Below, piece by piece: positions 3,935-60,525 of a DNA stretch of 64,000 nt. The translations under genes and the position numbers were made by a program. Where the stretch lies: NCBI RefSeq assembly GCF_000427685.1, contig NZ_KE386573.1, positions 248,001 to 312,000 of the forward strand. The letters run 5' to 3'. The DNA comes from Haloplanus natans DSM 17983. GTDB lineage: Archaea > Halobacteriota > Halobacteria > Halobacteriales > Haloferacaceae. A model generated the notes under the pieces. It was not told the DNA's origin. It did not search any database and was given only the letters and a program-made list of their open reading frames with translations. The number at the start of each line of letters is the position of its first letter. Position 1 is the stretch's first letter.

Positions 3935-4474
3935 ATGACGGACGATCACGCACTCGCGACGCTCGCGGGCGGCTGTTTCTGGTGTCTCGAAGCACCGTTT
4001 CAGGAACTTCGCGGCGTCCACGCCGTCACCTCCGGCTACGCCGGCGGCGACACGCCCGATCCGACCTACGAGGCGGTGTGTTCCGGGTCGACCGGCCACG
4101 CCGAAGTCGTCCAGGTCGAATACGACCCCGACCGCATCTCCTACGCCGACCTGCTGGCGGTCTTTTTCGCGCTCCACAACCCGACCACGAAGGACCGACA
4201 GGGGCCGGACGTGGGCTCGCAGTACCGCTCGGCTATCTTCACCCACGACGACGACCAGCGGGTGGTTGCGGAGGCGACGGTCGAACGCCTCGCCGACGAC
4301 TACGACGACCCCATCGTCACCGAAGTCGAGCCACTGGAGACGTTCTATCCCGCCGAGGACTACCACCAGGACTACTACGCCAACAACCCCCAGCGGGCGT
4401 ACTGTCAGGTGCAGGTCCGGCCGAAGCTACAGAAGGTTCGCGAGCAGTTCGCGGCACAGGTGGCCGAGGACTGA
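3935..4474 (+). CDS. msrA: Peptide-methionine (S)-S-oxide reductase MsrA
   Basis: MsrA repairs oxidised methionine in proteins. The 179-aa product has the catalytic GCFWC motif at residues 13-17 with Cys14 as the nucleophile, and the YAGGDTPDPTYEAVCSGSTGHAE region and QYRSAIF strand that bind the substrate. The ATG at 3935 lies about 27 nt after a GTACATAG box that overlaps the pus10 stop, so the message is probably leaderless. The stop TGA is followed at once by TAG and merges with a dispersed palindromic element (4474-4552). Confidence 0.95.
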   Translation: MTDDHALATLAGGCFWCLEAPFQELRGVHAVTSGYAGGDTPDPTYEAVCSGSTGHAEVVQVEYDPDRISYADLLAVFFALHNPTTKDRQGPDVGSQYRSAIFTHDDDQRVVAEATVERLADDYDDPIVTEVEPLETFYPAEDYHQDYYANNPQRAYCQVQVRPKLQKVREQFAAQVAED

Positions 4475-4552
4475 TAGAGAGTACTGTCAGTCATCGCCGG
4501 TGGGTCGGAACGGGTCGGCGAACCACCGGTAACCAGTTACAGTAAACAGTAT
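4474..4552. repeat. Dispersed palindromic element, copy 1
   Basis: This imperfect inverted repeat has arms of about 31 nt that match at roughly 21 of 31 positions when one is reverse-complemented. Read on the minus strand the better arm is ATACTGTTTACTGTAACTGG followed by TTACCGGTGG. It resembles copies at 12131-12216 and 59960-60036. The left arm begins in the TGATAG at the end of msrA. The function is not known; it could be an operator, a terminator/RNA structure or a miniature transposable element. Confidence 0.75.
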
Positions 4553-4671
4553 GAGACAATCCGTCGTCACTCCGCCGGGCGCCGTCCTCGATGGCGATGG
4601 CGTTTCGGACGGGCTCCCGTGCCGTCGACTTCGACCCAAACGGCTTTGATGCGGTCCGCACACCAGCCGGT

Positions 4672-12130: not shown

Positions 12131-12216
12131 TCATAGTGTTTATTGTAAGTCATTACCGATGGCTCGCCGGACCGTCTTGGTGACTCACCGGTAACCAGTT
12201 ACAATAAACACTATCA
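12131..12216. repeat. Dispersed palindromic element, copy 2 (best preserved)
   Basis: The arms at 12133-12148 and 12199-12214 are perfect 16-nt inverted repeats of ATAGTGTTTATTGTAA, and the match continues inward through TTACCGxTGxxTCxCC to about 30 nt per arm. The centre is a short non-palindromic loop near 12170-12177. It lies in the gap between mch and a zinc microprotein gene. From 12217 to 12440 I see no convincing gene: only a 30-codon minus ORF running into the element and a 44-codon plus ORF. Confidence 0.85.
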
Positions 12217-18582: not shown

Positions 18583-19440
18583 ATGGACGTAGACGCGGTC
18601 GTTCTCGACATCGACGGGGTGCTCGTCGACGTGGCGGACTCCTACCGCCGCGCCATCGTCGAGTCCGTCGACCGGGTGTACGGGCGGACGGTCGACGACG
18701 CGGCGATCCAGGCGTTCAAAGACGCCGGCGGCTTCAACAACGACTGGGAACTCACGTACGCCGCGGCGCTGTTCGTCCTCGCCCGTGAGGCGGGCTACGA
18801 CGCCGACGTGCCGGCCTTCACCGACGCGGTCGCCGAGGCGGGTGGCGGCCTCGACGCCGCCGAAGCCGTCGTCCGCGACGCGGGGTACGACGCGGCCTTC
18901 GATCGATGGGACCCCGACCGCCTGCGAGAGACGTTTCAGGCGCTCTACCTCGGCACGGACCTGTATCGCGACCTGGAGGGCGGCGAGCCACCCTTCGAGG
19001 CACGGGGCTACATCCACGACGAACCCGTCATCGTCGAGGCGTCGACGATAGCCGACCTGAACGAGCGGTTCGCGGTGGGCGTGTTGACGGGCCGTCCCGC
19101 CGCGGAGGCCGATATCGCCCTCTCGCGGGTCGGGCTCTCGGTTCCCGACGCCCACCGCTTCACGATGGACGACTGGGCGGAGGGCAAACCCCATCCCCAC
19201 GCTCTGACGACACTCGCCGACCGACTGGACGCGGCGCGCGTTGCCTTCGCCGGCGACACACTCGACGACGTGCGGACGGCGGCCAACGCCGCCGAGAGCG
19301 ACCCTGACCGGACCTACCACGGCGTCGGCGTCCTCACCGGCGGCCTGACCGGCGAGTCGGGCCGCCGAGCGTACACGGACGCCGGCGCCGCCGCGGTGGT
19401 CGAGTCGGTGAACGACCTGCCGGCCCTGCTCGACTCGTGA
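18583..19440 (+). CDS. HAD-superfamily phosphatase, TIGR01548 type
   Basis: This 285-aa protein has HAD motif I DIDGVLVD (Asp9 nucleophile, Asp11), motif II in VLTGRP near residue 168, and motif III/IV in EGKPHPHAL and [12 protein letters not shown]. The conserved [12 protein letters not shown] segment near residue 50 matches the TIGR01548 subfamily, which in some organisms is linked to histidine synthesis (an IGPD-like phosphatase role), but the substrate here is not proven. A small membrane-protein gene overlaps its stop (GTGA). Confidence 0.86.
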
Positions 19441-59918: not shown

Positions 59919-59959
59919 GTCCGGACGTACGGCGCCGAGTACAAAGTATGCCCGCGTCG

Positions 59960-60036
59960 TACGGACTGCTGTAACGGGTTACCGTGTTCGCCGACCCGGG
60001 CGACCCGCCGGGACTGACTCACAATGATCACTATCA
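59960..60036. repeat. Dispersed palindromic element, copy 3 (most diverged)
   Basis: The right arm reads on the minus strand TGATAGTGATCATTGTGAGT, close to the other copies, and the left arm keeps CTGTAACGGGTTACCG. Its end coincides with the psiE stop (TGA then TAG on the minus strand), as copy 1 does with msrA. The match to copies 1 and 2 is clear but weaker. Confidence 0.65.
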
Positions 60037-60525
60037 GCTCATGAGTTTCTGCCCGTAGCCCCGTTCGACGAGGAGGAGTCCGACCAGTCCGAGGATGAGG
60101 ACGGTGTACGCCACCGCGGCGAACAGGGCGTCCTGTGTCGTCGCGTACTCGCCGGTCCGGAAGATGATCGTCTTTCGAACCATCGCGATGACGCCGGTGT
60201 AGATCACCAGCCGGACGATCCGTCGCGTCTCGCTCTCCTCGGTGTACGCGATGACCGTCTCGTACACCTCGACGATGATGAGGAGGAGGAGGCCGGTGTC
60301 GATGAAGCCGATGACGACGAGCGGGTCGGTGATCCTCCCGCTCCGAACCGCCCCCACGATCTGGATGATGAGGTCGACGACACCGATGGCGAAAAGCAGC
60401 GCGAACACCGCGGCGGCGACGAGTTCGGCCGCGTGGATGAACCGGTTGGTCATGTTGGCGACGCGACCCGGCCCTGGCCGCTCGCGTCCCTCCGGTTCGA
60501 CTGACTCCTCCGCGTCGTCGGTCAT
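60034..60525 (-). CDS. psiE: PsiE family phosphate-starvation-inducible membrane protein
   Basis: The 163-aa product has a short acidic N-terminus and four membrane helices, with FIHAAELVAAAVFALLFAIGVVDLI (first) and LILGLVGLLLVERGYG (last). ARNDs such as TGEYATTQDALFAAVAYTVLILG, with FRTGEY, match the PsiE family. In bacteria it is induced by low phosphate; the same role is not shown here. Its stop is inside copy 3 of the palindromic element. Confidence 0.82.
   Translation of the reverse strand: MTDDAEESVEPEGRERPGPGRVANMTNRFIHAAELVAAAVFALLFAIGVVDLIIQIVGAVRSGRITDPLVVIGFIDTGLLLLIIVEVYETVIAYTEESETRRIVRLVIYTGVIAMVRKTIIFRTGEYATTQDALFAAVAYTVLILGLVGLLLVERGYGQKLMS

Follow-up and report, generated by a model that had tools for sequence, protein, structure and literature searches.

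The palindromic repeat that recurs in this DNA is very probably a mobile element of MITE-like type, 79-80 bp long and non-autonomous, with targets that are mostly stop codons and a core that flips. We analyzed a window of 64,000 nucleotides (G000:C7:248001-312000) from the 3.80-Mb genome of Haloplanus natans DSM 17983, in which an earlier note had placed three palindromic copies of 77-86 bp. All three were re-found at those places, with four matches to the arm pattern in the window against 0.02 expected from shuffles, and a covariance model recovered them with E values of 1e-25 to 1e-4 (Table 1). The lengths changed once the target duplications were set aside, as the table gives them, and one base of the perfect 16-nt arms ascribed to copy 2 proved to belong to its duplication, leaving a real outer stem of 15 bp. 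The earlier note was correct that the element carries no coding gene; it overlooked that the target is duplicated over 3 bp, that copies lie at stop codons and that the core occurs in flip and flop forms. Copy 2 is intergenic and lies between divergent predicted genes.

Table 1. Copies of the element in the window, their flanking triplets and the genes that end at them.
Feature	Coordinates	Strand	Evidence
Peptide methionine sulfoxide reductase gene (msrA-type); copy 1 targets its stop codon	3935..4474	+	Pfam PMSR, E=3e-67
Left target duplication TGA, copy 1; stop codon of the msrA-type gene	4472..4474	+	TGA on both sides; gene 3935-4474 ends there
Element copy 1, 77 bp, partly decayed; A end left, B end right	4475..4551	.	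Covariance model, 59.9 bits
Right target duplication TGA, copy 1	4552..4554	+	TGA matches left triplet
Left target duplication TCA, copy 2	12131..12133	.	TCA on both sides
Element copy 2, full length, 80 bp; outer stem 12134-12148 / 12199-12213	12134..12213	.	Covariance model, 107.6 bits; 100% self
Right target duplication TCA, copy 2	12214..12216	.	TCA on both sides
Left flank triplet TCG, decayed duplication, copy 3	59957..59959	.	Flank comparison
Element copy 3, 74 bp, strongly decayed	59960..60033	.	Covariance model, 33.4 bits
Right target duplication TCA, copy 3; stop codon TGA (minus strand) of the PsiE-like gene	60034..60036	-	
PsiE-family gene ending at copy 3	60034..60525	-	Gene call; Pfam PF06146, E=6e-12

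The count of three holds for the window and not for the genome, where the arm pattern matched 134 times on the forward and 134 times on the reverse strand, compared to 5 and 6 matches for a reversed control. The covariance model returned at least 150 matches in the same genome, all with E < 1e-10, while Blast scored 40 of 135 candidate places. From the stretches that were fetched we extracted 110 arm pairs, 92 of them exactly 80 bp long, and, once doubly called ones were removed, no fewer than 106 distinct copies. The family is present in each of the 12 genomes of the genus, and in an order-level sample 44 of 195 genomes, representing 22 of 67 genera and 6 families, gave matches at E <= 1e-5. 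These genome-wide and order-wide copies exclude the situation that the earlier note had named as favoring chance similarity, namely three loci only and no conservation in relatives. A genome from a different family, G183, holds about 80 copies; among 29 extracted 79-bp copies there were 16 distinct sequences with a median identity of 0.94, and this near-identity indicates recent spread. Copies are also numerous in G114, G017 and G175. Halobellus sp. Atlit-31R was the sole haloarchaeal match in a scan of GTDB contigs, plasmids yielded two weak haloarchaeal matches that carry no annotation, and the phage records searched contained no member of the family. The 54 exact 17-mer matches in viral contigs were rejected, as they look like chance matches in AT-rich phages.

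The repeat is flanked by an exact duplication of its target. The left and right triplets were identical in 77 of the 110 copies of the H. natans genome, whereas shuffling the flanks 2000 times gave a mean of 33 and a maximum of 48, and across the same 110 arm pairs the agreement between flanks never extended beyond 3 bp. The duplicated triplet is mostly TGA/TCA and rarely TAA/TTA, and triplets other than TGA still match across the element (TTA/TTA in five copies, TAA/TAA in two). Where both triplets have the form TNA, the two middle bases were the same in 43 of 46 pairs and complementary in 2; because they agree rather than pair, the triplet is a duplication and not part of the inverted repeat. 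The same 3-bp duplication was present in 32 of 37 G183 copies.

Empty orthologous sites were found in sister species. At L200:18247 in the H. natans genome the occupied site reads GAGGACTGA, 80 bp of element, then TGAGCG, while the corresponding sites read GAGGACTGAGCG in G009 and GAAGACTGAGCG in G006, with one TGA each; the protein encoded there ends identically in FGYERRYTTED and the stop with the insertion (H. natans) and without it (G009 and G006). The site at L200:4118 follows the same pattern, with GCCTGA. A copy of a related subfamily in G006 (L089) is arranged as aatACT-element-ACTGtcg, compared to aatACTGtcg with a single ACT in G009. For copy 1 of the window, alignment with L091 placed the end of msrA in sister genome G001 at the same codon (TAA) with the element absent; at the place of copy 2 the element was absent from every sister examined, in a spacer too diverged for the exact junction to be aligned. 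Taken together, the dispersed copies, the exact 3-bp target duplication and the empty orthologous sites show, as read from genome comparison, that the repeat is mobile. Among the candidates raised in the earlier note, the miniature transposable element is thus supported, by the many dispersed copies and empty orthologous sites that it had named as the signs of a mobile repeat, while an operator for a global regulator found no support, the position of the repeat differing between sister species.

A neighboring gene has its stop codon in the duplicated triplet, at the end of an open frame with typical codon usage, in 67 of 106 copies (63%) of the H. natans genome, these counts and the null below both resting on a simple codon-usage gene caller. 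Stop-codon copies made up 15 of 25 in G008, 12 of 20 in G006 and 5 of 6 elsewhere in the genus, and 20 of 37 in G183. Among the Pfam-supported genes that end at copies are msrA and the PsiE-family gene of the window, as well as atpI and one for a universal stress protein. Since the element begins with TAG in frame, the junction at a stop reads TGA-TAG, and since the stop codon is duplicated, the reading frame ends unchanged and the protein is unharmed. With respect to the stop, the element points either way at random (33 to 32).

Once the sites are turned so that all stop codons read the same way, the target is GAC-TGA-GAC, and copies outside stops use a similar motif; a palindromic target, GWC-TSA-GWC, was discarded as an artefact of a logo that mixed orientations. 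GAC or GTC precedes the stop at 55% of occupied sites, compared to 12.5% of stops in general. The stop-codon location could thus reflect this target motif together with the removal of harmful insertions, and no targeting of gene ends, an explanation that is compatible with mobility and that we judge to have an even chance of being right; the strong preference for GAC or GTC and the resemblance between the motifs at and away from stops both speak for it. However, a null weighted by the motif over all non-coding TNA sites placed 23-32% of insertions at stops versus the 63% observed, and the ratio of stop sites to sites in the first 100 nt downstream was 68:15, where motif weighting, admittedly a crude null, predicts a value near 1.3. 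These flank comparisons make targeting of gene ends a likely, although not proven, cause of the stop-codon excess, and much of that excess may be due to selection against other insertions.

The intact unit, without its duplication, is 79-80 bp long, nearly palindromic and non-coding. From the outside inwards it has an outer stem of 15 bp, an internal loop of 5 nt, an inner stem of 15 bp and a loop of 10 nt, or of 9 nt where the copy measures 79 bp. Its 15-bp ends follow the pattern TA[CG][GT]G...TGTA, and the internal loop holds conserved like-with-like mismatches, with GTCA on one side and CTGK on the other. Compared to shuffles, copy 2 folds with z = -7.0 as RNA and -5.3 as DNA. We aligned 19 representatives from many genera, in which 91.8% of cells were paired, compared to 72.7% when shuffled and 28-48% when slid; the covariation score was 0.496 compared to 0.155 for shuffled sets, and 19 of 30 pairs had double changes. 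Within the 15-bp outer helix, which forms the terminal inverted repeats, 93% of cells were paired. The alignment thus shows that both stems are kept by compensatory changes across genera. If a single enzyme acts on both ends, the outer stem should covary; the covariation of the inner stem goes beyond this, and quasi-palindrome correction could be its source. The mismatches of the internal loop nevertheless persist, which argues that selection acts at least there. One G183 copy (L286:1505-1583) is a nearly perfect 79-bp palindrome in which the normally asymmetric internal loop is symmetric, with GGTGCG on both sides, possibly a case of palindrome correction.

The terminal loop occurs both ways round relative to the asymmetric ends. 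The loop GGACCGTCTT was found 13 times and its reverse complement 13 times, and the loops GACCCGTTCT, GGACCGTCTC and GACCCGTCCT lay one way in 11, 10 and 7 copies and reversed in 6, 5 and 6 copies, respectively; the two directions numbered 18 and 8 in G183. Some pairs of copies are identical over 80 bp except for an exact inversion of the inner 36 bp, in one such pair together with a stem mismatch. The occurrence of both directions and of pairs that differ by the inner inversion indicates that the inner hairpin inverts often. Such an inversion would proceed through a hairpin, a cruciform or strand switching, and could take place as the element moves or afterwards in a resident copy. Short inverted repeats are known to undergo strand switching between their arms during replication, and replication strand switching between the stem arms of resident copies, likewise compatible with mobility, would fit this behavior and the restriction of the inversion to the inner stem and loop. 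We consider this origin of the flip/flop as probable as its opposite; against it, the near-identical and presumably young copies of G183 are already in both states at 18:8, which would need a high rate.

The structure and location of the repeats raise the alternative that they are cis-acting terminators or 3' UTR hairpins that selection keeps at gene ends, their mobility being incidental. The high proportion of copies right at stop codons, the strong covarying hairpin and the RNA fold of copy 2 agree with such a role; even so, we regard it as improbable, because positions differ among sister species, about a third of copies lie away from stops and decayed copies lose the fold, as in copy 3 of the window, in which the stable hairpin is gone (DNA fold z = -0.3). 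No Rfam match was obtained in the window or L200, and no T run was seen by inspection after the hairpin. In the A-type ATP synthase operon (L200:15687-20000), one stop-codon copy lies after atpI and before atpK and is absent in three sister species, and the next gene is co-directional at 14 of 20 scored stop-codon copies, one locus being counted twice. The lack of a T tract, the copy inside the ATP synthase operon and the co-directional next genes make a strong terminator unlikely. Of the earlier note's proposal of a structured RNA or terminator there is left a structured RNA in 3' UTRs, possible as a side effect of insertion, and a mild 3' UTR effect is possible, while a host function is not needed to explain the data.

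Returning to the mobile element, the 3-bp duplication points to DDE-like cleavage of both strands, staggered by 3 bp. A transposase acting in trans would recognise the 15-bp ends and the conserved asymmetric bases (GTCA at one end, CTGK at the other), cut the target with this stagger and insert the element in either orientation. The target itself is T-S-A, set in a short motif that resembles GAC-TGA-GAC. Genes that end in GAC-TGA or GTC-TGA match this motif, so haloarchaeal gene ends would be natural landing pads, and insertions at stop codons would cost the host little and would persist. Movement as a single strand by an HUH/Y1 enzyme of the REP-RAYT or IS200-like kind, with the left TGA as cleavage motif and the right TGA as a fixed end, would account for the hairpin architecture with its palindromic ends, the inner flip/flop and the conserved internal mismatches, but is highly unlikely, because the right triplet tracks the target in non-TGA copies and in the ACT/ACT copy with its single ACT at the empty site, and HUH elements are not known to make target duplications.

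Searches of 30 DDE_Tnp_1 loci of the genus, for PF13340, of 864 kb of the H. natans genome and of the G183 tiles yielded no autonomous transposon that shares these ends. The 30 DDE_Tnp_1 loci, considered as candidates for a parent insertion sequence, were rejected, as they have other ends, of ISH1-type and similar; the PF13340 search of the genus returned no domain; and the 864 kb contained no arm pair at transposon spacing, the unpaired arms there being decayed copies only. Single arms in the G183 tiles also came from decayed copies, apart from one copy (L312:3037-3115, the same copy as in L308) that is split by a sequence starting with GAGGGTGTCATAGAAC and resembling an ISH-type end of the genus. 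A more far-reaching version, in which a haloarchaea-wide element targets stop codons as such, inverts its core through a hairpin or cruciform intermediate in each round and is moved by an enzyme family new to transposition, is unlikely overall; in that version the enzyme might be a domesticated host gene, as the genomes examined show no autonomous copy.

Among described systems, haloarchaeal MITEs and the small mobile repeats (SMR) of Haloquadratum come closest. Like MITEs, the present family is short and non-coding, has terminal inverted repeats, a target duplication of constant length and many copies, and appears to be mobilised in trans; unlike them, it has no transposon found with the same ends, is very short at 79-80 bp, and combines a covarying hairpin, a flip/flop core and a stop-codon target. 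The SMRs of Haloquadratum walsbyi are 80-110 bp long, have prominent inverted repeats unrelated to known transposons and number tens of copies, with 80 bp for HqIRS41 of the SMR-B family; they were reported to lack target duplications and to insert into other mobile elements, and their mobilisation was called enigmatic, the mobilising enzyme being unknown (PMC3119063). Our family resembles them in size, prominent inverted repeats, copy number and the lack of an assigned enzyme, and differs in its 3-bp duplication and its location at gene ends, a distinction drawn from the published descriptions of the SMRs. REP/REPIN repeats with RAYT (Y1) transposases are likewise extragenic palindromes of high copy number, often downstream of genes, but REPs are shorter units and have no target duplication, in contrast with the 3-bp duplication here. 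ERIC, RUP and Correia/NEMIS are small palindromic intergenic MITEs of IS630 type, with many copies, that duplicate TA; the likeness ends at this target, 2 bp there and the 3-bp TSA here. Insertion sequences of the IS1031 type within the IS5 family make a 3-bp TNA duplication, as does our family, although PF13340, which we take to be typical of that group, is absent from the genus and no shared ends were seen. PATE elements, derived from IS605, lack terminal inverted repeats, unlike the present family with its outer 15-bp inverted repeats. Our search of open papers found no description of the family, and as far as could be found it is undescribed. What distinguishes it from the closest systems is the 3-bp duplication, the stop-codon location, the covarying hairpin and the flip/flop core.

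A parasite that inserts at a stop codon and duplicates it has a simple means of filling a gene-dense genome while leaving the host's proteins intact, and many genes thereby gain a hairpin of 80 nt directly after their stop. With a family that is widespread in haloarchaea and has recently spread in some lineages, it becomes testable whether a flip/flop core is the mark of a hairpin step during movement, and which enzyme moves the orphan palindromes of haloarchaea, the enigma posed by the Haloquadratum SMRs (PMC3119063).

Several individual copies merit description. Related subfamilies (L089:14851-14936, L185:5538-5621 and L191:15236-15341) have the ends TAGGGATTATCGTAA around a different core that starts with CTGTCCATAGATTCTCGCC, and one of them is about 105 bp long; the L089 copy duplicates ACT instead of TSA. 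Copies in G044, which belongs to another genus of the same family (L137 and L141), have exactly the arm sequence of the H. natans genome, rare elsewhere, and from this sequence identity horizontal transfer is possible. Two identical copies with identical flanks lie about 6 kb apart at L193:12886-12971 and 18969-19054 (L013, L014), the shared flanks indicating a local segmental duplication and not two insertions. At L320:6042-6203 a tandem pair was found in which the second element is inserted at the TGATA end of the first, indicating that the TGA-TA junction is itself a target.
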